A stretch of 64,000 nucleotides of DNA from Prostheceraeus crozeri (taxonomy: Eukaryota > Platyhelminthes > Polycladida > Euryleptidae): contig CAJQUW010008614.1 of the NCBI GenBank assembly GCA_907163375.1, positions 186,001-250,000 of the forward strand, given 5' to 3'. The position numbers were made by a program, and so were the translations under genes. This document shows positions 42,248 to 64,000 of this stretch, in pieces (within the stretch, counting starts at the first letter, position 1; each line of letters starts with the position of its first letter). The notes under the pieces were generated by a model. The model worked only from the letters and a program-made list of their open reading frames with translations. It did no database searches and had not been told where the DNA came from.

Positions 42248-42253
42248 AGTTCA

Positions 42254-42618: not shown

Positions 42619-42657
42619 TACATGGGACATCGGAGAAGTCTTCCAGGGTTCGCCCGT
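42619..42657 (+). repeat. Double-hairpin element a
   Basis: GGGACATC-gga-GAAGTC (one mismatch) followed by CCA and a GGG-TTCG-CCC hairpin. It lies at the ruined junction of zinc-finger and polymerase coding sequence. Confidence 0.7.
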
Positions 42658-42692
42658 GACAGATATAAAATATTTATTTAATGAATCGGTAC

Positions 42693-42730
42693 ACGGGACA
42701 TCAAAGATGTCTACCAGGGCTTCGCCCGTT
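42693..42730 (+). repeat. Double-hairpin element b
   Basis: GACATC-aaa-GATGTC (42697-42711) and GGGC-ttc-GCCC (42717-42727) within CGGG...CCCG. It is in frame inside the polymerase gene, encoding HGTSKMSTRASPV. Confidence 0.8.
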
Positions 42731-44255
42731 GAACATAATGAAACCGATGAAACTTTTTATAATGTATTAACCAACTTTTATAATATATTTAGAAAATATT
42801 TCAAATGTTATATGAATGTAGAAGTACTTTCTACAAAAAATGGACCTGATGGAATTCCTGAAGAAATAATACAAGGACATTTTACAAATTCACAAGAAAT
42901 TCATAATGTAAATGATATAAAACCCATATTTGAACAAATGATACTTAAATTAGAAAATTGTATAATTGAAGCCCAGTTACGTGAATCTGGTTGGAGATTT
43001 GTTAAAATACTATCTAAGAAAATAGTAATTGATAAATATAAAAATAATACTGGTGGTAGTTATGTTCCTTTGCCTTTCAGTTCACCACAAATAATCAACA
43101 TAAAAAATGAAGATGATTATTGTTTTCTGTGGAGTATTATAGCACATTTACATCCTGCAGAATATCATAAAGAAAGACTAAGTCATTATAATAAAGAAGA
43201 ATACATAAAGGAATTTGATCTCTCTGATGGCTTAGATGAATTTCCATATGATTATAATAGGTTAAAAAAGTTTCATAAAAAGACTAAAAATTTAATAGAA
43301 GTAAATGTTTTTGAATTAAATGTGAATTATGTTTCTATTAGTAATATTACTCCATTTTACTCAGATTCAAAAAAATTTTATTTGAATAATAGAAATTTAT
43401 GTCAATCAGAAATAGTTTATAATGATAGAGGAAATTACATGCATCATAATATTTTTTACCAAGGAAATATAATATGTACTGAAAAATTTCAAATTGTTAA
43501 AACATTATCACCAATAATGATTAATCATAATAATTATAAAGGACGTAATTATAATTATGATTATGATTCCGATTATTTATCTGTATTTTTAGAATATCAA
43601 CAAAAATTACAAAATTTAAATGAAAGTTTACAAAAATGTAAAACAGATTATCAACAACAAACAAAAATATTAGTACAAGAATATGGCCATAAATATCAAA
43701 ATAAGATAGAAACGATTCAAGAATCAAATAAAGACAATAAAGAATTAAATAATGAAGAAAATGAAACCAATCAAAAAATAAATGAATGTTTTAAACAATG
43801 TCAGCAACAATATAAAGAACAATATGACAAAGAATATATTTATCAGCTACAAATATTAAATCAAAATTTTCATCGAAATACATTTAATCTTACAAAAGAA
43901 ATTGATGAAACACATGAAATATATAAAGATAAATTTGAAAAATTAAAACAAACAAAGCAACCAGCACAAGCGAATATATTATATTATCAGGGTCATTTTA
44001 TATTGTGTAAAGATGTTTCTATATTTACAAAAACTTCAGATAATACAAATTTTCCTTGTCTTCAATGTATGACAAGTTTTAGAACTTTAGAAGAAATGAA
44101 TAGACATTTGGAGAATTGTCAACAAAATGAAGCAGTCAGAAACACATTTCCAAAAGATGATTATTTAGAATATAATAAATGGTATTTTAAAAATAAAGTA
44201 CCCTTTACTATTTATTGTGATTTTGAAGCATATAATTTTAATATGACACAAAATC

Positions 44256-44281
44256 GAACCGAAGGTTCTAGGGCTTCGCCC
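44256..44281 (+). repeat. Double-hairpin element c
   Basis: GAACC-gaa-GGTTC (44256-44268), then TA, then GGGC-ttc-GCCC (44271-44281). In frame in the polymerase exonuclease domain (RTEGSRASP). A near copy lies at 63899. Confidence 0.85.
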
Positions 44282-44591
44282 AATTCTCATAAATGTAAAT
44301 ATGAAAAAAGTGCACCTGAACAAAGTAAAGAAAAATATTTATTTGAACAAAAACCATTATGTTGGGGAATGTACATTCATTCAAATTATCCTGAATTATT
44401 TAAATCAGAATATTTTCAATACTATGGTGAAGATAGTTCAGAAATGTTTACAAAGAAAGTAGAAGAATTACAAAATTATTTTTCACAATTGTTTGAAATA
44501 AATATACCAATGATGCCATTAACAGAAAAAGAAAACTTAAATTTTATTAATGAAACAAAATGTTTTTACTGTGAAAAAGAATTGGGTAATG

Positions 44592-44618
44592 ATAAGCGAA
44601 GCGACGGCTCTGCCGACA
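44592..44618 (+). repeat. Hairpin-forming GC-rich insertion d
   Basis: AAGCGAAGCG followed by CGGC-tct-GCCG (44605-44615), in frame in the polymerase gene between the Cys and His parts of the zinc-like cluster (KRSDGSADK). Confidence 0.6.
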
Positions 44619-45313
44619 AAGTAAAAGATCATGATCATCTAAATGGATTATATAGAGGTGCAGCACATAATTCTTGTAATCTTAATGCTAATAAATTTAA
44701 ATATAACTTTGTTCCTTTATATTTCTACAATGGTTCTAAATATGATTTCCATTTAATAATGAAAGATTTATTTTCATCTGAAAAATTACAACAACAACAA
44801 AATAAATGTACTATGTAAAACAGAAGACGAATATTTTTCAATGCAATTAGGTTGTATTAGAATTTTAGATGCATGTAGATTTTTTACTCCTTATTCATTA
44901 GATGTTATGGGGAAAACTTTGAAACCTGAACAATGTAAAATATTAAATAAATATAATTTAAAACCTTTAAAAGGAATATTTCCGTATGAATATATAACTG
45001 GAGATTTTAATTCTGTGAATAAAATTATGGAAGAAAAACAACTTCCTCCAATAAATAAATTTAAATCAACATTAAAACAATCACAATTATCTGAAGAAAA
45101 CTATGCTGAAGCTGCAAAAAATTGGAGAGAGTTAAATTGTAGAACAATGTACGATTATACAATGAAATATCTACAGATAGATGTATTAATACTAGCTGAT
45201 CTTTTCGAAAACTTTCGTGACATGTGTTTAGAATATTACGGAATAGATCCATGTTATTGTTATTCTACACCAGGTTTAACACGGTTAGCAGGATTAAAAC
45301 ATACTGGTGTTCA

Positions 45314-45338
45314 AGCCGATGGCTCTAGGACAAAGTCC
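45314..45338 (+). repeat. Double-hairpin element e
   Basis: AGCC-gat-GGCT (45314-45324), CTA, GGAC-aaa-GTCC (45328-45338). In frame in the polymerase gene (ADGSRTKSV). Same two-stem layout as element c but with different, compensating stem sequences. Confidence 0.8.
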
Positions 45339-46817
45339 GTTAAACTTAAACATTATAAAGAAAATACATATGATAAATTATTTTTTGAATCTGGAATTAG
45401 AGATGGAGTTTCATCAGTTTTAGGTAATCGCTATGTACAGTGTTACAATAAAAAAGTAAATCCTGATGATTATGGAATAATGAAACCTTTATCTCCAGAA
45501 GAAAGTGATCAGTTTATAAAATTGTTTAATCAAAATATAGAAGGACTTATATCAAATGAAGATAGTCAAGCAGCAGTTGATGAAATCATGAGAGAAAACT
45601 ATTTGTTATATTATGATTTTAATAGCTTATATTCTTCTTGCATGATACAAGAATTACCAACAGGTGAAATGTCATGGTGTAATATTTTAGATTATCAAAA
45701 AACATATGATGGAAATTATAATCATGGTTATATATATGAAGTTGATTTAGTATACCCTGATGAAATAAAAGATAAAACAAAATATTTTCCTTTCTGTCCC
45801 GAAAACAAAATTCCCAATATAGAAGATTTTTCAGATTATCAAAAATCTATAATGCCTAAAAAATACAGACCAACAAAAAAACTTATGTTAACACAAAGTA
45901 ATAAAGGAAAGTATGTTGTTGAACGAAGAATACTAGATTGGTATTTAGAACATGGAATGATTCTCACCAAAATACATCGAAAACTATTTTATCAAAAATC
46001 TAAATGGTTAAAAAATTATATAGAGTTCAATATTGAAAAACGTAAAATATCTAAAAGAAATAAAGATGATTTTGGAAACGTGTTCTTCAAATTAATGAAT
46101 AATGCATTTTATGGTAAGACTTTAGAAAATGTGCGTAATAGACAAAATATTGAAATAGTTTATGATAAAGATAGGTTTCAAAATTTAACAAGGAAACCTA
46201 CATATAAAAGAACTACTAGATTTAGTGATGAACTATGTGCTGTACATTTGCGACGAATCAGCGTAAAACATGATAAGTTTAATTTTATTGGATTCCCTAT
46301 ATTCGAATTAGCTAAACTATTTATGTATAGATTTATATATGATTATTTAGCACTTGCTTATGGCAAAAACTATAAATTACACTTTACAGATACCGATTCT
46401 GTTTTCTTAGAATTAACAATACCGTATAATTCTTCACTTGATGAAGAAATTAATAAAATAAAAGATATCATCCATCCTTCAGAATTATGTAAAGTAAAAG
46501 ATGAATTAGAAGGAAATGAAGATTTCATAACAGAAGCTATATTTTTGAAATCTAAATGCTATTGTTATGATACAACTAATAATATTAAAACACATAAAAC
46601 ATTAAAAGGAATTTCAAAGGCATCAGTGGCTAATCAAATAACATTTCAAGATTATAAAAATGTATTATTTAATAATGAAATAAGAACAGCATGTAATTAT
46701 AGACTTAATTCAAAGAAACATAAAATGTATTTAAAAGAAGAACATAAATTAGCATTAGATCCATTTGATGATAAAAGAAAAATTTTACCTGATGGAATAA
46801 CTACTTCACCTTTTTAA

Positions 46818-47042
46818 AGTTTATTTATTATTATTTAAATCCGTCTAAAAAAATGTTATTATTTAAATCAGTCTAAAATAAAAATTTTATTATTTATTAC
46901 TCAGTATAAAAATTTTTTATTACTCAGTAAACAAATCTTCTATCGACTTTCAGTCGGGGCGAAGCCTAGACAGAGAACAATTGTTCGATAACTCTATCAT
47001 GAATTTTTTATCAATATTAATTGTGATAAATCCATAATCTTT
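46818..47042. other. Intergenic, convergent Polinton genes
   Basis: Short direct repeats of TTATTATTTAAATC(C/A)GTCTAAAA (about 46823-46880) and ATTACTCAGTA. A hairpin pair, CGAC-tttca-GTCG and GGC-gaa-GCC, lies at 46944-46966. This is where the polymerase (+) and ATPase (-) transcripts converge. Confidence 0.55.
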
Positions 47043-47700
47043 TCACCAAGCATTGTTACACGATTGTTTAAATTCATCTTTATTTCTTACACATAAATCT
47101 CTTAACAAATCACTTAAGTTTCTTGCATTTATTTCAAATAGTATAAATATATTTGCATTCTTTCTAATAACACTTCCGTCTAATGAATACATACTTTGTG
47201 TTAAATAAAAAACACTACAGTTATTATGTCTACCTCTTGTGAAATAATTTCTCTGAACTGACTGATTTCTATCATTAACACAATCATCAAAAATTACACA
47301 ATGCTTCATTGTTTTATCTAGTTTACTAGGATCTTGCATATTAACACTATCATCTATTAGTTGTATTTTTATATGCTTATTTTTATTGGTTTCTACTAAC
47401 TGATTATTTTTTGCTGCTTCTTCACACCTCGAACTTATTTCTTCTTCATTTTCAGATTCTGTTTTTTAAGACTATTTTCAAATCCATATTTTAAAAATTG
47501 ATAGACGGGTTGTTCTGCTGTTGTTGTATAAATTATAAGATTGTTATAATCCAAAAAATTTGTAGTCGTTAAAATTTTAAATAATAGATATGTTTTTCCA
47601 CATCCTGATCTTCCACAAATAACTGACAAAACTTTATTAGATAAATTTGGATGATGATTAAATTTAAGTTTTTTTTATTTAATGGTAGTACTTCACTCAT
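47043..47700 (-). pseudogene. FtsK/HerA-type packaging ATPase (A32-like)
   Basis: Minus-strand pieces form one ATPase. 47435-47629 holds Walker A in ICGRSGCGKTYLL; 47043-47339 holds Walker B in HCVIFDDCVND, then NCSVFYLTQSMYSLDGSVIRK (a sensor-like Gln motif) and a C-terminal helix. Proteins of this type pump DNA into capsids. The likely start is an ATG at about 47700 (MSEVLPLN). One-base shifts in A-runs occur near 47670 and 47465, so the present copy does not encode full protein. Confidence 0.85.
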
Positions 47701-47747
47701 TTTTTAATAAAAAAATTTTATTTTTAATTTTTTAATTTTTTGTTTCT

Positions 47748-47799
47748 AAAGAAGAAGAATAAGAAGAATAATAAGAAGAATAATAATAAGAAGGAAAAA
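47748..47799. repeat. AAGAAT/AATAAG microsatellite
   Basis: Irregular iteration of GAAGAA, AATAAGAAG and AATAATAAG between the penton-like gene and the ATPase. Confidence 0.75.
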
Positions 47800-47812
47800 A
47801 TTAAACTTCTCT

Positions 47813-47864
47813 AGCTTCGCGTGGGAGTTTATACCTCTCGAACTGGAGTTTATACCTCTCGAAC
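47813..47864. repeat. Tandem duplication over the penton-gene 3' end
   Basis: GGAGTTTATACCTCTCGAA occurs twice in direct tandem (from about 47823 and 47845). The second copy holds the stop and last codons of the penton-like gene. Confidence 0.7.
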
Positions 47865-48638
47865 CAAAAGATCTATCATAATCTCTTCACCTCCAGAATT
47901 TATTTCTTGTCCTTTTCCTGTCAGTGATTCTCATGTTTATGTTGTTAATAGTTTTTCTTGTAATAGGGAAATATATTAATGTTTGTGGAATTACATTTAA
48001 TCTATAAACAATGGGTACAGTAAAAGCTGGAAAACTGAATATTAAATTCGACAATTTACCATTTATATATCCTCCTTCAATAATGTCACAATGTACAACA
48101 ATTGAATTTATTTCAGTTATTTTGGAATCTTCTCACCTAAATGATAACCTTGACTATAGGTTTGTTTATTAAATCCTAATAGCTTTGACAATGATCTATC
48201 ATGATTAAAATCAACTTGATGATTTTCGTCTAAAGTAAGAGAAAATTTATTAACTGCCGGTTCAACTGCAAAATGTAATTGTTTCTTATCTTTAAATGGT
48301 ATACCTAAATATCTCTTAATTTCATTTGATATTGATTCAACTTCGTAAGAACCAGGAAGAAAAATTAGTATTTTCCATGTTTTGCCTTTATCAGTAGAAT
48401 ATCTAAATTGGTCATTCACATCTTTGATAACGTTTTGAATAGTGTTAAATGTGGAGAAATTAGTCAATGCAATTTGATAATTTTTATTTTGTTCCAAATG
48501 TAGAATGGGTTCTAAATTACAAGTGTGTGATGAAGTAGTTGTTATAATTTTTAACGTCGTACTAAATTTTGATGAACCCAAAATCTCTGTCAAATTTTCT
48601 AAATGATTATTAATTTTGTCTAAATCTGCTGAACACAT
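47850..48638 (-). pseudogene. Penton-like minor capsid protein (Polinton mCP)
   Basis: From the ATG at 48638 a 173-codon frame encodes NLEPILHLEQNKNYQIAL, NFSTFNTIQNV and IFLPGSYEVESI, the conserved start of the Polinton single-jelly-roll minor capsid (penton) protein. After a one-base shift near 48117 the coding signal continues in another frame (VHCDIIEGGYING, VYRLNVIPQTL), and after another near 47915 it ends with GGEEIMIDLLVREV and a stop at 47850. The total length fits the family. It would form capsid vertices with the major capsid protein, which this copy lacks. Confidence 0.8.
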
Positions 48639-48717
48639 TTTTTAGTTAAAATTTTGAATAAATGTCTTTTATCAAATATTTTTTTTATAAAAAATTAAAA
48701 ACAACAGCATATTTCGG

Positions 48718-48757
48718 CTACGGGCGAAGCCCTGGAAGACATCTCCGATGTCCCGTT
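48718..48757 (-). repeat. Double-hairpin element f
   Basis: On the minus strand CGGGACATC-gga-GATGTC-TTCCA-GGGC-ttc-GCCCG, nearly identical to elements a and b. It lies in the noncoding gap between the penton-like and coiled-coil genes, so the family is not confined to coding DNA. Confidence 0.85.
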
Positions 48758-48863
48758 ATACTTTTATAATCCTCTTCATTTAGAATCTTCTTTTCTAACA
48801 GTCTTTTCAATATAGCATGAATTTCATTGAAACTAGAATTATGTCCTTCTTTTATTGCAGATA

Positions 48864-49552
48864 TTAAAATATATTTAATCTATTTAGTAATTCTTGTGGA
48901 TCATCTGGTAAAAATACAGTTGTTTCTGTTTTAAAACCCTTTCCTACTTTAACTCCCGTTGATAATAAATTTTCTAATTGTTTATAACGTCTAAGAGATT
49001 TTACTGCACCAACTCTATCTAACATAGCTTTATATTTTATGAGATCTTCTACAGCATAATTATTTAAATCTGCTCCTCTTAAAAGATCAACAAAATTTCT
49101 ATCTAAATTAAAAGCATATTTATCTGGTGAAAAAATTAGACCTCGAAAAGGTTGTGGAAACATTTCTTTTTGTCCGAGATAAAATCTAGGTATTGTTTTC
49201 CATCTATAAATGAAATAGAATGTTCAAATTGCATAGATTTTGGTAATTTCTTATTAATGTTTGATTCTAGTAATCCATAGTCATCTAATATAGTTTGGTG
49301 CTCTGGATCTGTTATATCAATTTGTTTATCATTATTTGTAAGTTCTTTTTCAAGAGTTTTAAATGGTTTCATAGCTTTTTCAAAATCAGTTTTTACTTGT
49401 TCGGTTTGCTGCATTTTTTCAAACATATCAGATTGAATACCAGCTTTTATCATTCTATGTTGAAGATGATTTTCTTTCATAATATTTCTTTGTTTTATTA
49501 GCTCTTCTAATTGTTTCATTCTTTTAAAATTATCAGCTCTAATTTTATCCAT
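48864..49552 (-). pseudogene. Conserved-type Polinton coiled-coil protein
   Basis: From an ATG at 49552 (MDKIRADNFKRMKQ; the frame is open upstream but this is the first plausible start) the protein is charged and helical, with a KQRNIMKENHL coiled-coil segment and KTLEKELTNND, then SFIDGKQYLDFIS. A shift near 49140-49160 leads to a second frame, PFRGLIFSPDKYAFN and LLRGADLNNYAVEDLIKYKAML, ending at 48864. I do not recognise a biochemical function; its place between capsid genes suggests a virion or assembly role. Confidence 0.55.
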
Positions 49553-49821
49553 TTTTAAAATATAATATTTGAATTTTGTGGTAACATTGGAATACAGCAA
49601 AAACATTTTACTGAACAAATTATTTTTTTATTGCTTTGTTGTCTGACATCTTTTCGTTTAAAGTTTTCTCGTTTTAAGTTAGTGTTTAATAAAGTTTTGC
49701 ATAAATTTTCGCTTAAAGTTTTTAGCTCTTCTAAAAAAATTTTATCATTTTCTTCATTAGAAATTTTACCATCACCAGAAATTTTGCCATCCCGTTTATT
49801 CTTATCATCAACTTTTTCTGA

Positions 49822-50352
49822 CTATAATTGAAATGATATTTGATTTACTTCATTAGCTATTTGATCAAATTTTTCAATCTCATCTAACGTAATAACATTA
49901 TCATCACATACTCTTTGAAAGTAGTAATGTAGTTTATCATAGACTTCTTTAATATATAAATGCTTAGTTTTTAATGATTTTCGTTTCTTAGTTATTAAAG
50001 ATTTATCTAACATTGTAACAAGTGAAGTTGCAAAAACACCCGTACCTGTTGAAGCTGTAGCAACTACTGGAATTACTAAAACACCTGAAGATATAACAAT
50101 TGTTAAAGCACCTAAACTTATTGTTAAGAATATGCCAATTCCTTGTGTTACATTCTTAACTTTACTCCATCTCTTTCTTAATTTTTTATAATGCTCTAAT
50201 CTTAATAATAATTGAGATTCCTTATCTTTCATATAACGTACTCTATCTTTGTGTTTTTCTTTATTCAATTCACTTATTTTTAACTGTGATAACGAAGGAT
50301 ATATTCGTGCGGTTTCTTCCACTTTTGTTTCATCCACTTTTGTTTCTTCCAT
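49822..50352 (-). CDS. Two-helix membrane protein of Polinton 1
   Basis: Chosen start is the ATG at 50352, eight codons inside a longer frame that opens with GTG; the ATG heads an imperfect repeat MEETKVDETKVEETA. About 176 residues: charged N terminus, then two hydrophobic stretches (GIGIFLTISLGALTIVISSG and VLVIPVVATASTGTGVFAT, roughly residues 75-115), then a helical charged C terminus. The frame is intact. Its first ~20 codons lie within the right terminal repeat and are duplicated at 40288-40320. Function unknown. Confidence 0.65.
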   Translation of the reverse strand: MEETKVDETKVEETARIYPSLSQLKISELNKEKHKDRVRYMKDKESQLLLRLEHYKKLRKRWSKVKNVTQGIGIFLTISLGALTIVISSGVLVIPVVATASTGTGVFATSLVTMLDKSLITKKRKSLKTKHLYIKEVYDKLHYYFQRVCDDNVITLDEIEKFDQIANEVNQISFQL

Positions 50353-50976
50353 TTTTAAAGAAATATTTTTAGACACATAAGTTTAGTTATCTCATATTTT
50401 AAAAACCTGAAAAATGGATTTAAAAGACGTTATTAAAAATACTAACTTTTGTGATTTTTTCGGTGTCCTTGAACGGTCATGATTTTGGGGGTGAAAATTG
50501 TAATTCACAAATTTGAGATTCTTAACTTTTATGATTTTTTCGGTGTCCTGGAACGGTCATGATTTTAAGGGGGGGTGAAAAATGTCATAATCACAAATTT
50601 GAGATTTTGAAAAATTTGAAAAATTGGGTATTTTTAAAAACGGTTTTTTTTCTTCATAACCTGAAAAAGGGTTCAAATTCACGAATTTATGTCGTTTTTA
50701 AAAATACCATTTTTTCAAAAAATGGTACTTTTTGAATGGACTAAATTCATGTATTTAGGTCTTAAAAACCTGAAAAAGGGTTCAAATTCATGAATTTATG
50801 TCGTTTTTAAAGATTCTATTTTTTTGAATTTTTATGGTGTCCTGGAACGGTCTAAATTCATGAATTTAGGTCTTAAAAACCTGAAATAATGACATAAATT
50901 GATAAATTTAGTCGTTTTTAAAGGTGCAAAAAAATTGAAAAATGGGGTGTCCTGGAACGGTCTTTTGCCCATTACT
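50287..50976 (-). repeat. Polinton 1 right terminal inverted repeat
   Basis: Inverse of 39540-40320, with one fewer copy of the ~118-bp terminal unit. Contains repeated GGTGTCCTGGAACGGTC and AAATTCATGAATTT motifs. Extends into the membrane protein gene. Confidence 0.92.
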
Positions 50977-52494
50977 AGGGTCATTTAAAATTGAACATTG
51001 TTTTGGCGTAGAAAGAACGATTGAACGAGTGTTTTATGCCATGAACGAACAGAACGTGGGTGATAACTCATTTGAGTGGTGAACGAGCGAACGGGTCTGA
51101 AAGCCTATTGAACGGAAGATCGAACGAACGCGGAAAAATATGACCCTTCAAATGTCATCAAATGACCTTTTACATGTGACCTTTAGAACTAAAGCATGAC
51201 TGAAACATGTAATTTATTAAGACCCCGGTATGCCGCGTTATTTTGTGACATCTAATCATACAATTTCATCCTGCCTCTGCCAAATCAGCAATTCAATTAT
51301 TGCACGATAAGTGATAACTGTATGTGTGTGGCAGACAATGTTTTTCATTTCAGCAAACAGAGCATGAATTATCTTTTGCATCACGGAGATCAACAGTTTT
51401 CTAAAACCAATGTTGCATTTATGCTTTAAATGCTGGATTAGTGATGATCATAATTGTTGGCCTGCCAAGGCACTTCGAACTTCTTGCGGACGATTTTTAA
51501 ATCTTACTTTAATTTGTAAAAATCGAGAGCTGCATATTGACCAACAATGGTACATAGTATAAATGCTAGCACAAATGCAATCGAGATCCAGTGGCAATTT
51601 CTCAGGGTATTATTAAGGTAAACAGTGTTTACTGTCAAATTATCATGTTAAACCAAATTTTACCGTTTCATTCTTAATGATAGACCAATTTGTTACAAAA
51701 GCAAATTTTAGAAATTTAATTCTTATCATAGGTAATTATTATTATTTTTACTACTATATTTGAAGCTTATTAGCAACACATCACACAGTGGCGAAATCTA
51801 CATGGTGAAAGAAGATTCAATATTGAAAAGACAAACACACATCTGATGTGATTATGTATTGCCATGGAAACATCAGTTGTTGATAAATGTCATCCGGTAA
51901 TATCTCGAGTTGGCAGAGACATCAGGGTAAAGACTCCTCTAAAACATTACCTAGTGTTACGGGAATGCTATATCTGTCTTATCTCCTAATGATTTGTTTT
52001 GTTCTATCGATAAAGACAAGATGCATGTTTTGCCAAACCAATTGCATACTGAATTGCTTGTTCTGTATAAAACCTATGAGTTTGTTGGTATGACAGCATG
52101 TGCAGCAAAGTTTGAACCTGCTGATACATGATTTTTCTGATTTTTTCCCACGACTGAAAAGTTACTCAAACCACTCACCACGCTTAACGTGTCTTGTTGT
52201 TCTTCATCATCCTTCTCTACTCGCAAAAGAATTATAAGATTTTCTAGGACGAGTATGTCCGATGAGAGATTGCGTAGCTTGTCTTTTCTTTCGATTGAAA
52301 AAGAACTCATACCTGTATCATAAAAAGTTGCCTTGAAAAATGGCATTCAGATGTTATGGATCGACATTTTTGCAATGTCAGAAAGAAGAAAAGAATTGAA
52401 AAAAATGAATGTTGATTTGGAATGCTGCTTTTACTTTATTTGGAAGGTACAAGTGTACGGATGCTGTATATGCTCGCATGCATTTTGAAAAGAT

Positions 52495-53669: not shown

Positions 53670-53730
53670 ACCCGGAGTCGGAGTCCTATCAAAAGCCGAA
53701 GTCCTATCAAAATGATAGGACTCCGCATCC
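53670..53730. repeat. GGAGTCCTATC repeat cluster 2
   Basis: A second copy of the same palindromic module, GGAGTCGGAGTCCTATC ... ATGATAGGACTCCG, 600 bases from the first. They could be the two arms of one small element or two solo copies. Confidence 0.65.
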
Positions 53731-54890: not shown

Positions 54891-55154
54891 ACATACATGA
54901 TTTTTTTGACGCACTGCAGACTCTTTTGATGCCACTTACATCAGACATCCAAAAATTATGTTAATGGGGTGTGCTCAGCTTTAATGGCTCCTTACATGTA
55001 TTTCCCAAATTGAAGATTAAATTTCCCAAATTGGTTATATTTAAAGACATATAGGCCTATTACATTTTGTAAAAATAGTATTGACGACTAAAAGTATTGA
55101 AACAAGGATTAGTACACATCAATCCAATGTCATTCACAGTACGGAAACTATGAG

Positions 55155-55583
55155 TCAGTGTTGTAGTATACATTCTCGGAAAAGAACAAACTTAGTTACA
55201 AAACCTGTTCTACATATCAAAAATATAGAAAAACAAGGAATGGATTCACAAGCTGAGGTATGTAGTTCCTTATCAGAGTGACTGAAGAATTGAACGTTGG
55301 AGCGCTTCCATCCATGAAGTACAAGATGAATTTTTAAACTATGATGCACTACTGTTGACTTTGGAATATCAAGTTCATCGGATAGTCTCCTCACAGAAGT
55401 TTTCGCATCATCTTTCACGACAATCTCCACATGATCGATCATGTCTCCCCATTCAGTTGGTCTTCCACTCCTCGGTCTGTCAAACACACTTCTAGTCTCC
55501 AGTAAATTCTTATTCCAAGCCTTTATTACGAGATGTTCTGGTGGTTCAATATTACAGTACTTCGCACGGTCTGTCTCTAACAA
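55155..55583 (-). pseudogene. Tc1/mariner transposase DNA-binding relic
   Basis: The minus-strand frame carries FDRPRSGRPTEW, DDAKTSVRRLSDELDIPKST and LHGWKRSNVQ, the paired helix-turn-helix region with the GRP linker found in mariner-like transposases. After about residue 95 the family pattern is lost (CESIPCFSIF). No catalytic core is present. Opposite in orientation to the fragment at 54422-54890, so a separate insertion. Confidence 0.65.
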
Positions 55584-55929
55584 GCTTCATTAAATGTTTA
55601 TCTTGCTCACTAGCGGTGTAAAACGAAGCAGCATGAATTTCTATTCAGCCGTGTAGTCAATTGCATCAACCATCTTCAATGGACGAAATAAGTAATAAAG
55701 AAAAATGCAATCGCACAGTGTACTTCAAGGATTCAAAATTTTAGATATCTACGTGGCTGAATTTGAAAATCAGTATAGACATTCATAACGTTGTCCGAAT
55801 TGACGTAAGCGAAAACCGCAGTAATGCAAATAACAAAGAAAAATATTTCTGCATCAGAATATATAATCGAGAACATTGCAACGGTAGTAACATAATATTT
55901 TAAAATCAAAAAACAAAAGCATTGTGATC

Positions 55930-56340
55930 TTTTCAAACTTTCAAACATGACACGTTTCTTCTTAAAAGATTTCCATTTAACTCAATGAATTTTGTCTGGA
56001 GGGCCATAAAATGAGCAGCAAATCGCTTATGGTGCCTGTAAACCATAACATGAGAATTCTTGTTCGGCACATTAAAATGAAGCGCTCGAGGCTCCGTTAG
56101 ATTGCATAGTGAGTCAACCAATGAGTGTTCTCCCAGTTGAACGTTCCACTGACACGGCAAACGATGAACAAAACTAGGTTTCGATTTGACGATAGCATTA
56201 ATAATATCTTGATCAGCGTTTGAGGTTGACTTGGTAATTGGTAGCCAACGACGCACTGTCTGTCTCCAAACCGCATCCCATCCGAAAGCGCGAATACGAG
56301 AAAGGTACAGTAGCATCAATCCCGTATTGAAACCTCGACC
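55930..56340 (-). CDS. LARGE-like xylosyl/glucuronyltransferase exon
   Basis: The minus-strand exon starts after an acceptor (CTACCTGCAG at 56350-56341) and reads GRGFNTGLMLLYLSRIR, then NADQDIINAIV, FVHRLPCQWNVQLGEH and FIELNGNLLRR. This order and the QWNVQL/NGNLLRR motifs match the end of the first (GT8, xylosyltransferase) domain of LARGE proteins, Golgi enzymes that build matriglycan on alpha-dystroglycan. After NLLRR the frame runs only to a TGA (55933-55935); GT dinucleotides near AGAAAC|GTGTCA could be the donor. No other exons were found in the window; upstream exons would lie beyond the second Polinton. Confidence 0.8.
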
Positions 56341-56696
56341 CTGCAGGTAGTATGATAAAGCAATTAACACATATTCGATTGATCTTCAGTTGATGCAGAC
56401 CTACAATGCATCAGCTCAGCTTAGTAAAGTTGCTGTGGGAATGGGTTTTGGCTAGCGGGAATTCCCACATGCAGGAATGGTCAATTTCCTGGCTGCTGCC
56501 ATTTTCACGTATGGTGCTGGCGCCAGCACTGGCACCAGCAAAATTTTCATTTCAAATATTTTGCACATTTTTATACGTAAATATTCATTTATTTTGTTAC
56601 GTCGAATTTGGCCGAAACAGCACGCTTAAGCAATAAGTATTGACGTTCAATAATCACTCAATGATTTTTTTAACATCCTAAAAGATAGTTATCATG
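56341..56696 (-). other. Probable intron of the LARGE-like gene
   Basis: Noncoding upstream of the LARGE-like exon; the 3' splice site is at its left edge. A GGCGCCAGCACTGGCACCAGC stretch, palindromic in part, lies at about 56519-56540. The Polinton begins at 56697. Confidence 0.5.
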
Positions 56697-57155
56697 AGTA
56701 ATGGTCAAAAGACCGTTCCAGGACACCATAAAATTCAAAAAAATAGTATCTTTAAAAACGACATAAATTCATGAATTTAGACCCTTTTTCAGGTTTTTAA
56801 GACCAAAATTCATGAATTTAGTCGTTTTTAAAGATACCGATTTTTCAAAAAATGGTACTTTTTAAATGGTCTAAATTCATGAATTTTGGTCATTTTTCAG
56901 GTTATGAAGAAAAAAACCGTTTTTAAAAATACCCAATTTTCAAATTTTTCAAAATCTCAAATTTGAGAATTACAATTTTCACCCTTAAAATTATGACCGT
57001 TCCAGGACACCGAAAATCATAAAAGTTAAGAATCTCAAAATTTGTGAATTACAATTTTCTCGCTTAAATCATGACCGTTCCAGGACACCGAAAATCATAA
57101 AAGTTGAGAATTTCAAATTTGAGAATTACAATTTTTTCTCTCTCTCTTAAATCAT
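56697..57155 (+). repeat. Polinton 2 left terminal repeat, partial
   Basis: Four or five copies of GACCGTTCCAGGACACC-headed units like those of Polinton 1. The similarity ends at about 57155 (CTTAAATCAT), where foreign sequence begins. Confidence 0.85.
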
Positions 57156-57349
57156 ATCCTATAACAATATTCATCTATAGTGTATAACGTCTTTGTCCTT
57201 TTGTAGCGTGACATTGATCAGCTGAAAGGCAAAAGCATTTTTTAAGATATTGTTTCAAAGTTTCACTTGAAATTTACGGGATAATAGTTCTAGTTTCTAA
57301 CTGTAACTACTGTGGATATTTCTTAGATTTATGATTTCAGAAATGTCTA

Positions 57350-58343
57350 CACTGTAGATCGCTGGATACGAAAATTACATACAAACACATACCAAGTTTA
57401 CATACAATTTGAAACCAACATTTGATACGAGATTCTGGTATATATAAAGAAATCTGGTATGTTTTTCATACGAATGGCCATTTACTTTCGTATGTGATTG
57501 GTATGTAAACGATACGAACTATGCTAACTGTGATTGGCTGTTTTACGTTGAAATACGAATTCTTGGTATGTTTTATATACGAGACCCGATGCAAATTGGT
57601 ATGTGTTTCGTATGTCTTTCGTATGAATAGCTTTGTGTCATATGGCAAAAAATATGTTATACTACATACTACTTACAAATAACTTTTTCCAGTAATACCA
57701 GCCGTGAATATTTCTTTGTGAAAGTGTGGTATTTAACTAGATTAAATTTGTTGTGGAATTAAAGCCGCATGTCATCTTTGCAACTTGTCTTATAGCATTC
57801 ACAAGACTCATAATTAGCTCATTTCCTTGAACTAAATTGATAAACATCATTTCAATAAAACGATAACTTTTCAGCAACCATGTTGACTTATATATCTCAA
57901 ACATAACTATTTTTGCGTTCATGAATTATAATGTGTCTTTATTTTGGATTGATAATAAGCTTAGTTCCAAAATTACATAATGCATAATTGTTGATGGTCA
58001 AATACTTATTGATTATTTATGAAATGCCTCGGACTTACATGTATAAAAATCGAATTCAGTATTGTTAGTTTGACTATAAAATGTCATTATCTCACTACTT
58101 ACAAAGCAGTAGTAGCATTAGTGTGATCTTTATTGACAAAAAGCCTTAAATCAACATACTTTGGACATGATTGATGCTTTATTTTAACATTGTGCTGGTA
58201 TGGCTTTAGTATGTAAAGCATACCACACTTGAAATAACATGCGAAAAGCATACCAATATATACCAAGATCATACAGAAATATACCAAAAAAATATCTTGG
58301 TATGCATCCTTCGTATGTGATTGGTATTGAGCGATTTACAGTG
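57350..58343. mobile_element. ~1-kb TA-flanked element rich in GGTATG
   Basis: Ends CACTGTAGATCGCT (57350) and AGCGATTTACAGTG (to 58343) are inverse copies with one difference, each flanked by TA, the Tc1/mariner target. The interior holds roughly twenty copies of GGTATG or CATACC, in both orientations, concentrated near the ends (57361-57640 and 58197-58326). No transposase frame. It is nested in the interruption of Polinton 2. Confidence 0.75.
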
Positions 58344-58345
58344 TA

Positions 58346-58737
58346 CGTCCCATTGTTCGAAAAACGAACATGCAAAGCATAAATGTTCATTACGTATACT
58401 AAAACATTATCAACTCTTCTGCAAATGATACAATAATAATCTTTTTAGTCTACTGTTGCTATTACTATGATTCATTGCTACCTCTAACTCTAATTACCGA
58501 CATAAGCTTAGATTATTTGAAGCAAATGTGACTTACTGAAAAGTTCGTGACTGTCGACAACTCTTGCAGCAGCTGCAATTGTAAGAAGGCGTAGACGAGA
58601 CAAATGACTGCTGCTACGCGTTAGCACTGTTTATCAACTGCCTTGAACAGAGAGTCGAAATGAATCGATCAATGACGTAGTTGAATGCGGTTGATGAAAC
58701 CCATCTGTTCGAAAAACGAACAATGGGCCGTTATGGG
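58346..58737. mobile_element. piggyBac-like fragment ending at a TTAA in Polinton 2
   Basis: Its right edge is CCGTTATGGG followed by TTAA (58738-58741), i.e. an inverted CCCATAACGG end; TTAA is part of the native Polinton sequence, as the homologous site in Polinton 1 (about 42312-42316) shows. CCCATTGTTCG near 58349 and GAACAATGGG near 58729 are inverse copies, and TTCGAAAAACGAA occurs at both. The matching left TTAA end was not found. Confidence 0.5.
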
Positions 58738-58741
58738 TTAA

Positions 58742-59038
58742 ATCATCAACATTGTGGAGAATATTTTTAAGAACTCGTTTTCCTTCATCAACTAATTTTA
58801 GTTTACTAATAAAATTATCTACTACTCCTTCACCCCTAGCAACTTTCTCTAACTCTCTATTATGACGTTTTTGTTCTTCTAATGCTGCTTTCTCTGATTT
58901 ATTTTTATTTACTGCTTGGACAATACCAGCTGTCCCACCTGCAACACTTCCTGCTGCTGCTATGCCACCTATTATTAGAGGAATATTGCGTAATTTTAAT
59001 TCAACAGTTTTATTATTATTACTTTTCGCTTGCGACAT
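58742..59038 (-). pseudogene. Small Gly/Ala-hydrophobic Polinton protein, 3' truncated
   Basis: From the ATG at 59038: MSQAKSNNNK, then RNIPLIIGGIAAAGSVAGG (membrane-like), then a charged ELEKVARGEGVVDNF region. It ends at 58741 where the TTAA-bordered insertion removes the last ~20 codons (the open frame runs into the insertion as far as 58634). The complete 3' end is seen in Polinton 1 at 42254. Likely a minor virion or membrane peptide; function unknown. Confidence 0.7.
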
Positions 59039-59140
59039 TTTTAATAAAAAAATTTTAAGTTACGCAAATTTTTAATCTATTGTAGTTATGAAAAATTTTA
59101 AGTTATCAAAAATTTTAATCTATTCTAGTTATGAAAAAAA

Positions 59141-60475
59141 TTAATTAATCCTAGCCATCTTTCCATTAAGAATTTCAATAGAAAATTTTACATCTTCTAG
59201 CAATAAACCATAAGCCATCAATGAAGTTGTGGAATCTTTCTTTTCAATATTAATTGTTACATCACAACCAGTCTTGATAATATCTTCAGATTGTGCACTT
59301 AAATCGAAACAGAAAACAGGATATAAATGTCTCCAATCTCCAGGAGTTAATTGTGGTTCAACTCCAAATTCTATACAAAGATTTCGATAAGAATCATATC
59401 CTTCCATAAATTGATTATTGGTATCATCGAATCTTAATGGATCAATTGGATATCGGGTTTGATTTAATGAAACTTGTAAACTTCGAATTGTATTAATATG
59501 AAAAATATTGTTGTTCTTATCAAAACTTGGAGAATTATTTCTTTGAAATGTTAGTAATAAATATCTTGGAGTATTCGAAGTTCTAGTAAAATGCCAGTTA
59601 AATCTTTGTTCGGAAAAAGTTACTGAACTAGCAGTACGCTTTAGAAAATTTACTGGAATTGGTTTGTTAGTATTTAATCTTTTTGCAATAGCTGTTTCAA
59701 CCTCTAAACTAGGAGTAATATGCTTAATCCACCATTCAAGTCTATCAATTTTTAAATATGCTTTTTTTCCAGTTTTACCAAAAAAGATTAATTCATTATT
59801 TGCTGTACGATGAATTATTAATTTAAATTTTAATTGATGTGACATTTTGTCATAATCTAAATATCCGAATAATGGAGACAATGACCAATTAACTGTCTGT
59901 TTACTTTTCTTGTTAAATTCACGTCTTTCTTTGTATGCATCATTATTTGTTTTATTTAAATGTTTTGCAATATTTTCTACATCTTTCGCAATTCCTGCGG
60001 CATTTGTTCCAGCGTGAGTTAAATCATCAACAATTATACCATCATTAGTATCAGGAAACCAACCTTCGATTTCATACTTTTTATTATTTTCACCAATTGT
60101 TACAAATCTAAGCATTGTATCAATTACACCTGGAGAAACACTTATTGTTTCTATATTTTGAGTTGCAACATCTAAACGCATTTGTGTAAATAATCTTGGA
60201 AAGAAATTATTCTCTAGTGCAATATTATCGGTATCTGGTAATGGTGTTGTAAAATTGGCATCACTATATAAAGAATATTCACAGTGTAAAAATGAATCAG
60301 GTAAATATAAATAACTCTGCTGATTATCAACTTCAAAAATTAAATCACCTTCAGTATTTACTCTACTGGAAGATCCGGGATTCATAGCAATTCTTATATA
60401 GTCATTCTTTTTTTGATTGTAACTGACGAACGAAGGATCGTCTAATCTAAATTTATTTTCGATAAGCGAAGACAT
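59141..60475 (-). CDS. Major capsid protein, double jelly-roll (Polinton MCP)
   Basis: An intact 444-residue frame from an ATG at 60475 (MSSLIENKFRLDD). The region VDNQQSYLYLPDSFLHCEY, the mid-protein WSLSPLFGYLDYD, IDRLEWWIKHI and the C-terminal LYPVFCFDLSAQSEDI are typical of Polinton major capsid proteins, which form hexon-like trimers as in adenovirus and virophages. Length is within the family range (about 440-600). No stop or shift, in contrast to most genes of Polinton 1. It lies among other virion-type genes on the same strand with short gaps. Confidence 0.85.
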   Translation of the reverse strand: MSSLIENKFRLDDPSFVSYNQKKNDYIRIAMNPGSSSRVNTEGDLIFEVDNQQSYLYLPDSFLHCEYSLYSDANFTTPLPDTDNIALENNFFPRLFTQMRLDVATQNIETISVSPGVIDTMLRFVTIGENNKKYEIEGWFPDTNDGIIVDDLTHAGTNAAGIAKDVENIAKHLNKTNNDAYKERREFNKKSKQTVNWSLSPLFGYLDYDKMSHQLKFKLIIHRTANNELIFFGKTGKKAYLKIDRLEWWIKHITPSLEVETAIAKRLNTNKPIPVNFLKRTASSVTFSEQRFNWHFTRTSNTPRYLLLTFQRNNSPSFDKNNNIFHINTIRSLQVSLNQTRYPIDPLRFDDTNNQFMEGYDSYRNLCIEFGVEPQLTPGDWRHLYPVFCFDLSAQSEDIIKTGCDVTINIEKKDSTTSLMAYGLLLEDVKFSIEILNGKMARIN

Positions 60476-60584
60476 TTTTATAAAAAATAATTTGACTTTT
60501 TGTTTTTCTCACACACAGAAAAAATTTTACTGAAGAAATTTTGCTAAAAAATTTTACTAAAAAAATTTTTACTAAAATATAATT

Positions 60585-61088
60585 TTAGAATTTTGCTAGA
60601 CCAGCTCCGCTGCTCACGCCATTACCTCTTATTTCTTCAATTGAACGTTTTATGGCTACGCCTGATTTTTTCTCCTCTTTACTATCAGACGGAGCTCCGA
60701 TCCTCAAGGTTTCATCCCCCACAGCTATGTTAACAATTTTGCTTTTTGTTTCCTCTGAAAGTTTTTCTAATTTTTTTAGCTCTTCAGAATCATTCCTAAG
60801 TTTACGAATAGCTTCTAGTTGTTTTAATTCGTTTTGAGACTTAACAGCATTTGATATTGCACTAGCTGTACTACCTATAGCAGCTGCTCCTTTTGCAGCA
60901 GATGTAATCAAATCTTTATTATTTTTAATTAAGTTAACGATACTTCCAATACCAGAAAATATACCGGCTCCTTCTTTTTGAATTGTTTCTACACTGTCAC
61001 AATGGTAAACAGATTTCATAGATCGCTCATGAGCAATTTTTTGATTTGAAGGAAAATGTTTAAGATTGTGTTTATAAATCATAGGCAT
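60585..61088 (-). CDS. Minor virion-like protein with hydrophobic core
   Basis: A 167-residue intact frame (ATG at 61088). Residues ~40-80 read GAGIFSGIGSIVNLIKNN and AAKGAAAIGSTASAIS, a Gly/Ala-rich amphipathic or membrane-active segment, followed by a charged coiled coil (LKKLEKLSEETKSK) and a basic tail. Such layout is seen in minor capsid proteins of DNA viruses that breach membranes, but I recognise no specific family. Near the 3' end short hairpin sequences, GGC-gta-GCC (60651-60659) and CAGC-gga-GCTG (60602-60612, approximate), are read in frame. Confidence 0.6.
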   Translation of the reverse strand: MPMIYKHNLKHFPSNQKIAHERSMKSVYHCDSVETIQKEGAGIFSGIGSIVNLIKNNKDLITSAAKGAAAIGSTASAISNAVKSQNELKQLEAIRKLRNDSEELKKLEKLSEETKSKIVNIAVGDETLRIGAPSDSKEEKKSGVAIKRSIEEIRGNGVSSGAGLAKF

Positions 61089-61097
61089 TTTTTAAGA

Positions 61098-62016
61098 TTA
61101 AATTTGACTTTTGGGAAAAATATTTACGTTAAGATTTACGTGTGTGAATGTCCAACAACTTCGTGATAACTTTACTAATTTCCGTTGCACTTTATCTATT
61201 GCGTCAAGTAGCGTGTGATATACTTTAATTTCTTTTCTATTAACTTGCATTTTCTGCTGATTAATCTTCAATGCCGTTTTAAGTGCATTTAACTTAATTT
61301 TAAGAACATCTAATTGTCTTTTAACAGCATCTAACTGTTCTTTATTTTCTTTAGAGTTTTCTTGTAAATTTTTCTTTAATTCATTTTCTAAATTGATTTT
61401 AAGAGTTTTCATTTTATCAACTTTTTGATTAAGTGAGTTTACTTCATTTATTATTCTATTCATCTTTTTCATTTGTTGAGTAATTTTAGAACTCAATTCA
61501 TCAACATTTTTTTTGGAATGTAGTTTGTAACTGCTTTAAATTATTTTTAATTCTTTCAGGTAGATTTTCTATTTCATCTTCTAATTGTTCTTTTAACATT
61601 TTTATCTGATGTTTATATTTAATGACTGCAGATTTTAACTTTATAGAAAGTAATATTAAAATTTTTGATTGTTCTGAAATCTTTTTAAAACGTTTTGCTA
61701 TATCTACTTCTAGCTCTCTATCCTTTTTATCAAGTTTTAATAATTTTTCGTTTAATGATTTGTCATTAAGTTTTAGCAACTTTAATTCATTCATCAGTGG
61801 AACCAAAATCTCGTTTATATATTTTTCCTTTAAGTCATTGATTTGTGTATCAACATATTGTTTATTTGTTAACTCTGTGTTTTGTTGCGGAAGAATAGGA
61901 AGATGCAATGGACCAGATAAAACGTCTCCAGTTTTCATGATATAATTTTCTATTTCTATTTCTAATTCACGATTATTCGGGATATATGCACCTCCACCAA
62001 CACTTGGTAACATCAT
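61098..62016 (-). pseudogene. Fibre-like coiled-coil protein
   Basis: From the ATG at 62016 (MMLPSVGGGAYIPNNREL) the protein has an N-terminal module MKTGDVLSGPLHLPILP and NTELTNKQYVDTQI, the pattern of phage tail-fibre and adenovirus-like fibre shafts, then about 200 residues of almost pure heptad-like coiled coil, ending SRSCWTFTHVNLNV. An A-run shift at 61501-61510 splits it into frames 61501-62016 and 61098-61496; the second has no ATG start and continues the same coiled coil, so it is one gene. It is placed between virion genes. A receptor-binding spike is a reasonable inference; no head domain is recognised. Confidence 0.6.
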
Positions 62017-62118
62017 TTTTAAAACAATAAAAAAGTATTTTTTTATAAAATGAGAAAAAAATGAAATGTTTTCTAATAAAAATAAAAAAATAAAATTTTT
62101 TCTAATAAAAATAAAAAA

Positions 62119-63465
62119 ATGGATAAGGCAAATTTAAAAAAAATTATATTCGTCCGCATCATCCTGTTCTTCTTATTCGACGAGATCAACGGGATTTGAA
62201 AATAAATGTTTTGATAATAATAATAATCCATGTATAGATGTAAATATTTTATTCGAATTACAAGCAGAAATATTCAGAGAACAAACAAAAGGTTTACCTT
62301 CTATAGAAACTAACTATTGTATATTTCCAGGTGATCCATTTATAAAATTTATGGAGATTGTAAGCAAATATAATGATGTGGCTTATGTTGAATTAAATAA
62401 AGAAAATATGGTTATAGTAGGTCATAATAATGTTTATGGTTTTATTAGAGCAGTGTTACCAATTAGTAATACTGATTGGATAGAAATTAAAATTATCAAT
62501 TATATCAATATTAAAGAATTAGTTAAAAAATTAAAATCTTTTTCCAAAGAAAAAATAAGATTATTTGTTGATGAACAAAATCAATATAATATTGACATCG
62601 AAAGTAAAAAACATAATGAAGAATTATTATGCCAAGTTTATTATAGAGACACAATTTATAAACAAGAAACATTAGAAATGCCGCAAAGATATGATGATGA
62701 TACATATATAGGATTATATTCAAACTTAAATATTAATTTATTAAAATCTTACATAAATGGTTTAGCTCAACAAGAGAAAATTTATATGTGGACAACACCT
62801 TATACTATTAACAATGACCATAATCATAATCATAATATTTTTAAAGAATCCAATAATAATAATTTTAAAGAATCTTATAATAATAATAATGATAATAATA
62901 TAGATGATGATAATATAAATGATGATTCTGAAACATCTGAAAAAGGTGTAAATGGCAAAAAAGATTATAAAAATGTTAGTAATTATAAAAATGTAAGTGA
63001 AGAAAAATTTATATCTCATACTGATGTACATGATATTGATACTACATATAATCAAAATTTATCCAAATTTCATTTTCTTACAATTGAAAATAATAATGAT
63101 GGTATAGTTGAAGATACTGTTAGACAACTATGTGTCGGGTCTACAAAATTTAAATTAGGATTTATATCTAATCAATTTGAAATTTTATCATCTTTAATAA
63201 AAACTAAAAGTGATTCAGATTATGGTGGTGTTATTAAATTTTCTAATAAAGATCAAAAACCAGTTTTTTTTCCATTATATTATCATCAAATCATAAATAT
63301 AATTTAGAATTAGATATTCCCATCAGGGAATGGTATCCTATCAGGGAATGGCATCCTATACCAAAAAGTGTAACTTATGATGTTGAAGAATCAATTTATG
63401 ATGATGATGAAGAATCAATTGATGATGATGATGAAGAATCAATAGTTAGTGAAAAAAAATTTTAA
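62119..63465 (+). pseudogene. Polinton protein, possibly sliding-clamp-like
   Basis: Likely start ATG 62119, with a shift in the following A-run; the main frame is open from about 62150 through 62351 to 63307, and after another shift coding signal continues to an acidic tail ending at TAA 63463-63465. Early residues FPGDPFIKFMEIVSKYNDVAYVEL and NVYGFIRAVLP, and later STKFKLGFISNQFEILSSLIK with a PVFFPLYY strand, recall the order of strands and helices at the start and end of PCNA. An Asn/His/Asp-rich low-complexity insert (about 62810-63050) separates them. This resemblance is by eye and unproven. Its tail contains a duplicated IREW(Y/H)P and runs of Asp/Glu. Confidence 0.45.
63311..63359. 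repeat. 18-bp tandem duplication in Polinton gene tail
   Basis: ATCAGGGAATGG(T/C)ATCCT occurs twice in direct tandem, adding six in-frame residues to the reading frame of the acidic tail. Confidence 0.7.
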
Positions 63466-63645
63466 TTATCTTTTAATAAAACGTTATATGATAAAACTTA
63501 ATATGATAAAACTTAATATGACAAAGAAAATAAGATAACTTAACAACGTGAAATATATAATAATATATAATAACTCTCAAGACCTTGATATTAGAATGTC
63601 TATATCTAAAATTAAAACACAATTTTTTCTTTAAAAAATAAAAAA

Positions 63646-64000
63646 ATGGAAAATACCAAGTTTTATTGTGTCTTATGTAAAAGACAGTTGCAAACAAAAA
63701 GAAGTTATCAATCTCATTTAAATAGTAAATTGCATTTACAAAATGTAGATCGAGTTGATGAAGGAAATATATTAAAATTAAATAATTATATAAACTATCT
63801 AGAAACATTACCTACTGATATAAAAGTTAAAAAAATGTTTGATGATTATTTACATTCAGAATATAAAAAAGTTTTTAATAGTGAAGATGAACATGTACGA
63901 ACCGAAGGTTCTAGGGCTTCGACCGCACGAGATGGAAGATATTTATTTAGCGATACTGATGAATTTAACGAAATAGATGAATTTGATGAAACTAAAAAAA
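63646..64000 (+). CDS. Zinc-finger N terminus of Polinton polymerase gene (partial)
   Basis: ATG at 63646, open to the window end. Residues 6-30 form a U1/matrin-type C2H2 finger, YCVLCKRQLQ...SHLNSKLH (C-x2-C-x12-H-x5-H). A helical segment and an acidic tail DTDEFNEIDEFDETKK follow. The last bases (GATGAAACTAAAAAAA) match 42585-42600 of Polinton 1, just before its polymerase frame, so this is probably the start of the polymerase protein or a gene directly before it. A double-hairpin copy (63899-63911 plus GGGCTTCGACC) is in frame (RTEGSRAS). Confidence 0.6.
   Translation, partial: MENTKFYCVLCKRQLQTKRSYQSHLNSKLHLQNVDRVDEGNILKLNNYINYLETLPTDIKVKKMFDDYLHSEYKKVFNSEDEHVRTEGSRASTARDGRYLFSDTDEFNEIDEFDETKK
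63899..63925 (+). repeat. Double-hairpin element g
   Basis: GAACC-gaa-GGTTC (63899-63911), TA, then GGGCTTCGACC, whose second stem is imperfect. A 23-base near copy of element c in the other Polinton, in frame in a different part of the gene. Confidence 0.8.

Follow-up and report, generated by a model that had tools for sequence, protein, structure and literature searches.

Short double-hairpin modules in the genes of flatworm Polintons

What are the short, GC-rich and potentially self-pairing sequences that lie within the genes of an AT-rich Polinton? The question is raised by 64,000 nucleotides of the polyclad flatworm Prostheceraeus crozeri (contig CAJQUW010008614.1, positions 186,001 to 250,000), here called the window. 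Its AT-rich DNA from 39.5 to 51.0 kb is a Polinton (Polinton 1), with terminal repeats, an integrase core (rve) and a DNA polymerase B gene that is split in two, and a second element, Polinton 2, begins further downstream. In Polinton 1 and the start of Polinton 2, we find GC-rich modules of 21 to 37 nucleotides (nt), each with two potential hairpins whose loops mostly have 3 bases. Comparison with homologous proteins shows that the modules are insertions at the polymerase places that the homologues cover. We consider it likely that they form a small, non-autonomous family of GC-rich double-hairpin insertions, which spread in this Polinton lineage at a time when its genes were under selection. 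A first-pass annotation had read them as mobile double-hairpin insertions, and this reading is supported by homologues (P0003 to P0006) that are free of modules wherever they cover the sites.

Modules, folds and subfamilies

We delimit each module from the base or bases before its first stem to the end of its second stem, with ends partly chosen by eye, and refer to it by its first position; CCAGGGCTTCGCCC and GGTTCTAGGGCTTCG are module-type sequence strings. The polymerase gene of Polinton 1 hosts four modules, with a fifth a short way upstream of them, still within this broken gene. At 44255-44281 (plus strand, 27 nt), GAACC/GGTTC (loop GAA) is joined by TA to GGGC/GCCC (loop TTC), and the module is read in frame as the peptide RTEGSRASP. 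The module at 45312-45338 (plus strand, 27 nt), also in frame, has AGCC/GGCT (loop GAT) and GGAC/GTCC (loop AAA) on either side of CTA. Within the N-terminal part of the polymerase, the in-frame module at 42692-42727 (plus strand, 36 nt) consists of GACATC/GATGTC (loop AAA), TACCA and GGGC/GCCC (loop TTC). The 21-nt module at 44596-44616 is in reverse orientation (minus strand), with a full first hairpin and a second of 2 bp. The upstream copy at 42621-42655 (plus strand, 35 nt) is degenerate: it belongs to the subfamily of 42692 and 48722, its first stem is mismatched and the frame is not kept.

The remaining modules lie in other parts of the two elements. The one at 48722-48758 (minus strand, 37 nt) forms the 3' end of a minus-strand open reading frame (ORF) and combines GACATC/GATGTC (loop GGA), TTCCA and GGGC/GCCC (loop TTC). 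N-terminal of the rve core in the integrase gene, the module at 41702-41731 (plus strand, 30 nt) is antisense yet in the open frame of the gene; GAGC/GCTC (loop GTT) is followed by TCA and by GACAGC/GTTGTC (loop TTT), the latter with one G-T pair. Outside the polymerase ORF, 46944-46966 (plus strand, 23 nt) holds CGACT/AGTCG (loop TTC) and then GGC/GCC (loop GAA). At the N terminus of the Polinton 2 polymerase, the module at 63898-63924 (plus strand, 27 nt) is in frame as RTEGSRAST and has a mismatch in its second stem. Modules are thus found in both orientations. A single 3-base-loop hairpin, GGACC AAA GGTCC, at 42233-42245 (plus strand) is a possible half module.

Folded alone as DNA, five modules (44255, 45312, 48722, 42692 and 46944) are predicted to form two hairpins, and 41702 is predicted to do so as single-stranded DNA, with a 5-base loop in the second. 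The copies that fold well have no predicted outer inverted repeat. Their hairpins fold separately, and in this they differ from miniature inverted-repeat transposable elements, which carry terminal inverted repeats.

Most, though not all, of the cases listed by the first-pass annotation stand. Four that it called clear have exact stems (42697-42727, 44256-44281, 45314-45338 and, on the minus strand, 48722-48752), while the fifth (63899-63924) has a perfect first stem but the second-stem mismatch, and folded alone it is not predicted to form two hairpins. Among those listed as weak, 41703 is better than stated, being the double hairpin at 41702-41731, and 46944 has two hairpins, with stems of 5 and 3 bp. 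The candidate at 42619 corresponds to the degenerate 42621 copy, of the 42692/48722 type but without a two-hairpin fold; the one at 44592 corresponds to the reverse-oriented 44596 module, whose second hairpin is not predicted to form; and the one at 42232 has the hairpin at 42233-42245 but no double hairpin. We dropped 60602-60659, which holds one exact 3-base-loop hairpin (60602-60612) and no double hairpin above threshold.

The modules are one family with subfamilies and near-identical copies. The Polinton 2 module at 63898 differs from 44255 at 1 of 27 bases, which gives the mismatch in its second stem, and 42692 differs from 48722 at 3 of 35, every one in a loop or linker. Modules 45312 and 44255 have 18 of their 27 bases in common. 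Of the 9 positions at which they differ, 4 fall in loops, another 4 form two compensated pairs (A-T to G-C and G-C to A-T) and the last breaks the outermost pair. These comparisons agree with the earlier proposal that structure is kept while sequence changes. Furthermore, the second hairpin GGGC-TTC-GCCC recurs across subfamilies; its 11 bases (GGGCTTCGCCC), with at most 2 mismatches, are found at seven sites in the window, all in Polintons.

We counted exact hairpins (stem 4 bp or longer, G+C fraction 0.7 or higher) in the Polintons (18,746 bp) and in the host part of the window (45,254 bp), and compared the counts with 12 shuffles that keep local dinucleotides. The Polintons have 10 GC-rich hairpins with 3-base loops, against a shuffle mean of 0.6 (maximum 3). 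Seven of these lie in modules, one is the hairpin at 42233, and two (42567 and 60602) were not counted as modules. The host has 11 such hairpins, against 10.0 in shuffles. For the other loop sizes from 0 to 8, the Polintons give 0 to 4 hairpins (0.8 to 1.2 in shuffles), with loops of 2 (4, shuffle maximum 3) and of 5 (3, maximum 2) slightly over the shuffle maxima. When stems of 5 bp are required (G+C at least 0.6), 3-base loops give 4 hairpins in the Polintons against 0.5, and loops of 0 (3 against 0.4) and 8 (6 against 0.8) are over their shuffle maxima too. The host shows excesses of its own in loops of 2 (24 against 10.1, and 12 against 4.5 in the 5-bp setting) and, at 5 bp, in loops of 0 (14 against 4.8).

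Double hairpins were scanned for as scored hairpin pairs and compared with 30 shuffles. At a score of at least 18, Polinton 1 (11.4 kb) has 8 against 0.83 (maximum 3), comprising 6 modules and 2 AT-rich pairs, while Polinton 2 has 0 against 0.47 and the host 5 against 5.03. At a score of at least 16, the counts are 13 against 2.93, 1 against 1.97 and 25 against 18.6, respectively. Six double-hairpin modules in Polinton 1 score at least 21. Between 40 and 50 kb, there are 3 exact GC-rich double hairpins, against none in 100 shuffles; double hairpins of any G+C show no excess there (7 against 3.64, maximum 10).

Insertion sites, flanks and reading frames

The proteins that we compared are polymerase homologues from metagenome catalogues, and all evidence of absence is at the protein level. 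P0005 (70% and 78% identical to the two polymerase halves) and P0006 (52% and 65%) each cover three of the Polinton 1 places, and P0003 (71% identical to the first half) covers two of these places and the one in Polinton 2; all three are free of modules there. P0004 (84% identical) covers 44255 alone, again without a module, so that this module is absent in all of P0003 to P0006. At 45312, the homologues have a gap of exactly 10 residues in a stretch that is otherwise conserved (GLKHTG-VKLKHYKEN in P0005), and the insert is present in none of the 45 relatives listed out of 184 aligned. At 63898, P0003 has a clean 10-residue gap, that is, 30 bases, or the 27-nt module plus 3. A clean 8-residue gap is seen at 44596 against P0003 and P0005, the two closest relatives that cover this site. 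A text scan of 271 fetched proteins for module-type peptides matched four short strings, all of them away from the module places.

We placed sites by residue number on a predicted structure of P0005 (mean pLDDT 82). Here, 44255 falls at the turn that links strands 328-340 and 344-358, 44596 in the Endonuclease VII-like part, within the loop that precedes strand 429-433, and 45312 at the end of helix 645-657. On this model, the three mappable module sites are turns or loops of the polymerase.

Exact 3-mer repeats lie on both sides of four of the nine modules (AAT at 44255, GTT at 45312 and 41702, and GTA at 48722), and the flanking 3-mers of the remaining five agree at two of three letters. In statistics that treat copies that are not independent, 22 of the 27 flanking letters match, against 13.0 with the downstream 3-mers re-dealt (P = 0.0011) and 8.5 at random Polinton places, or 11.7 to 13.7 if the start slides by 1 or 2 bases (P from 0 to 0.00025 in 20,000 draws). 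On the same terms, the four exact repeats compare with 0.3 to 0.55 expected (P from 0.0004 to 0.0015). This pattern suggests a 3-bp target duplication at insertion.

Six of the seven modules inside recognizable coding sequence (44255, 44596, 45312, 42692, 42621, 63898 and 41702) are in frame (P = 0.007 at a chance of 1/3), and the in-frame modules have no stops in the frame used. This count leaves out 48722, which ends its ORF, and 46944, outside the polymerase ORF. The sole exception, 42621, is structurally degenerate as well. In-frame copies had been proposed for the polymerase, the integrase N terminus and a zinc-finger gene, and this holds with one amendment: the zinc-finger gene is the N terminus of the Polinton 2 polymerase. 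Today the polymerase gene of Polinton 1 is broken at other places, and its in-frame modules would therefore date from a period under selection.

Origin and movement

Several observations weigh against a family of inserted, mobile modules. Three of the nine (42621, 44596 and 63898) have one degenerate hairpin and do not give the expected pair in predicted folds, and the folding energies of single modules are modest (z from -0.10 to -3.15). In the 45.3 kb of host DNA, four of the five double hairpins also score at least 21, at the host's chance rate; one pair thus proves nothing, and it is the rate and the family resemblance that carry the case. Judged by eye, 42621 and 63898 apparently occupy the same N-terminal place and yet belong to different subfamilies, which calls for a hot spot or a replacement. 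The partly by-eye choice of module ends also matters for the flanks, since GT. opens six of the nine upstream 3-mers and the flank may partly be element. At 44596, the loop varies in more distant relatives, and P0006 has a longer loop of its own. The whole loop at 44255 differs between relatives and is variable in length, so its ends are unreadable from proteins, and 42692 lies in a variable-length region in which P0003 is 9 residues shorter. The comparison with and without modules is one between proteins, so that module structure is what defines the exact ends and the duplications. Searches of a viral collection with two module patterns found no copy outside the window, and queries of the same collection with a polymerase half, P0005, the capsid protein, P0136 and P0179 found no match to related Polinton DNA. 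Among bacterial and archaeal genomes, a 20-base module pattern matched one Fusobacterium site, the single hairpin CTAGGGCTTCGCCCTAG, where we estimate that chance alone would give about 0.5 matches.

One alternative concerns where the family lives and is compatible with insertion as such: a repeat family of the whole host genome that also strikes Polintons. Single one-mismatch matches to the 11-base core do occur in host DNA at 22397 and 54556, with no double hairpin there at score 18. However, the host DNA of the window shows no excess of 3-base-loop hairpins, and the GGGCTTCGCCC sites at up to 2 mismatches are confined to its Polintons, and we regard a host-wide family as rather unlikely. 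It is also conceivable that the modules were born where they lie. Palindromes can arise by template switching or snap-back, and the Polinton polymerase could make short ones in protein loops, of which selection would keep those in frame; the loops at 44255 and 44596 indeed differ in length among relatives. Yet local birth would not be expected to place the same modules at distant sites, as with the pairs 44255/63898 and 42692/48722, or to yield loops that mostly keep 3 bases and a second hairpin that recurs, and this origin appears improbable.

Translational bypass (byp-like) elements, inserts that the ribosome skips, resemble the modules in hairpin shape and length range. The 81 bypassed inserts in 12 of 15 genes of Magnusiomyces mitochondria (PMC5009743) disrupt frames, whereas the modules here mostly keep them and have no stops in the used frame; such bypass is very improbable. 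The first-pass annotation had itself named ordinary conserved coding sequence, and hairpins no more frequent than in shuffled DNA, as outcomes that would count against it. Similar single hairpins, and double ones at the chance rate, are indeed found in host DNA. Nonetheless, the modules are absent from homologues at the covered places, and the 10 hairpins in Polintons far exceed the 0.6 expected, while the host count stays near its shuffles. For 45312, 44596 and 63898 this refutes conserved coding sequence or chance, and for 44255 it largely does so, though not for 42233 or 60602; for the modules as a whole we hold it to be exceedingly improbable.

The presence and absence of modules among proteins points instead to inserted double-hairpin elements that are probably mobile. 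Most likely they serve the Polinton in no way and are neutral or selfish DNA. The modules are far too short to encode a transposase, and the enzymes would be supplied in trans. A module might be exposed as hairpins while Polinton DNA is single-stranded during its protein-primed, strand-displacement replication, and the exposed copy could then be cut or copied out. The freed copy might join a staggered break at a different place, either in cis or in a second Polinton copy, through enzymes acting in trans, and the flanks suggest that this stagger would be 3 bp. Selection would then lose the frame breakers, and in-frame copies would remain.

A more specific proposal, to which we give a low probability, is that the elements are resident in Polintons and move between copies as hairpin DNA, with a 3-bp target duplication, mobilized by the Polinton's own enzymes, for example the polymerase's Endonuclease VII-like domain. 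Phage Endonuclease VII cuts branched DNA, which makes this domain a candidate enzyme, no more. If the proposal were true, viral proteins would gain in-frame peptides from the elements.

Double-hairpin elements (DHEs) of mitochondrial DNA were reportedly treated by Paquin and colleagues in 2000. DHEs in the mitochondrial DNA of chytrids (Allomyces) and fission yeasts are short, GC-rich, dispersed and sporadic, with two adjacent hairpins (PMC10085805). The modules share the two-hairpin GC-rich layout, the dispersal, the sporadic presence and the occurrence of some identical or near-identical copies. They differ in their location, since DHEs are mitochondrial, those of fission yeasts being intergenic or in rRNA genes, while the modules are in frame in chromosomal Polinton genes. 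In addition, Allomyces DHEs are reported without flanking duplications (PMC2800124), whereas the modules have apparent 3-bp ones (exact in four of nine, two of three letters in five of nine, with ends partly by eye). The GC clusters of yeast mitochondria, such as GC42, are palindromic GC-rich units in AT-rich DNA with direct repeats of 2 to 3 bases (AG, ACT); their units merge, and they are mostly intergenic, with one inside the var (rps3) gene (PMC4478555). The modules likewise are palindromic GC-rich units in AT-rich DNA and may have short flanking direct repeats, but their flanks are AAT, GTT and GTA, their sequences by eye are unlike the printed GC42, and yeast clusters are organellar. Palindromic elements of Rickettsia insert in frame into unrelated genes and are translated, with a conserved peptide ORF (PMC10969869). 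The in-frame insertion of six of seven modules resembles them, although they are bacterial and about 150 bp long, against two-hairpin modules of 21 to 37 nt in a Polinton. The likenesses that the first-pass annotation saw, to mitochondrial DHEs and to Rickettsia elements, are both upheld, the latter in the keeping of the reading frame. In Nematomorpha mitochondria, palindromes also lie within functional coding sequence, but there they encode conserved protein residues (PMC6649704), whereas the modules encode extra residues that relatives lack. By analogy, the modules would act like a DHE or a GC cluster with a Rickettsia-like tolerance in frame, and appear to be a member of none of these groups.

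The Polinton looks like an apparently new home for elements known mainly from mitochondria. Our literature search, which covered few subscription journals and was judged mostly from listings, named no such modules in Polintons, nor did the available portions of PMC5799277, and those of PMC3630166 contain nothing on hairpins. For the smallest mobile hairpins (DHEs and GC clusters), organelles are the main place in which to look for the way of moving. In Polintons, where copies come with module-free homologous sites, several subfamilies and apparent duplications of 3 bp, movement could be tested from population or copy-to-copy data of one genome. The modules also show a route by which virus-like elements gain in-frame peptides in the loops of essential proteins.

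The Polintons and their surroundings

Polinton 1 extends over about 39539-50980, as delimited by self-BLAST and the sequence of both ends. Its inverted terminal repeats lie at 39540-40320 and 50287-50976 (best piece 677 bp, 94% in self-BLAST), AGTAATGG is the terminus at either end, and AGGGTC just outside both ends reads by eye as an apparent 6-bp duplication. Its polymerase B gene (42656-46817, plus strand) is broken into two ORFs (42656-44818 and 44841-46817). The first half gave three weak, unrelated matches alone among solved structures (E = 0.27 to 0.3), and NCBIfam profiles gave weak unrelated matches alone. The Endonuclease VII-like PF02945 match in this polymerase has E = 9.4e-05, slightly below the cut-off; among homologues, it has 1e-05 in P0003, 5.5e-05 in P0005 and 1.2e-08 in P0126, with none listed for P0006. 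This stretch is listed in four of the five scanned polymerase homologues, and module 44596 lies inside it.

Polinton 2 runs from about 56695 to 64000, with the terminus AGTAATGG and terminal repeats related to those of Polinton 1, and leaves the window within the N terminus of its own polymerase. It has a double-jelly-roll capsid gene at 59141-60475 (minus strand). The zinc-finger N terminus at 63.65 kb aligns in 117 columns, with 55% identity, to the beginning of P0003, a protein in which a zinc finger is followed by the polymerase. The Polinton terminal repeats (39553-39973, 50443-50963 and 56953-57135) consist in turn of tandemly repeated units, about 80 and 110 bp in length. The two elements also share a 247-bp piece (42316-42562 and 58738-58984, 96%) that ends abruptly, and it seems that the N terminus of the Polinton 1 polymerase was lost at this end.

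The surrounding DNA contains piggyBac and LINE-type sequences, so the setting is chromosomal, not mitochondrial. No Rfam family at gathering score and no tRNA was found in the window. At 17196-18974 (minus strand), an open frame of 592 amino acids encodes a piggyBac transposase that has a 100% identical match in metagenome catalogues (98% covered), and the same or a near-identical element has therefore been sequenced elsewhere. A 715-residue ORF at 13435-15582 (plus strand) has a weak, below-cut-off match to a tyrosine recombinase (PF00589, E = 0.007) and is perhaps Crypton-like or related. Finally, an ORF with a GIY-YIG domain at 20588-21502 (minus strand) adjoins strongly repetitive DNA at 19364-21904.

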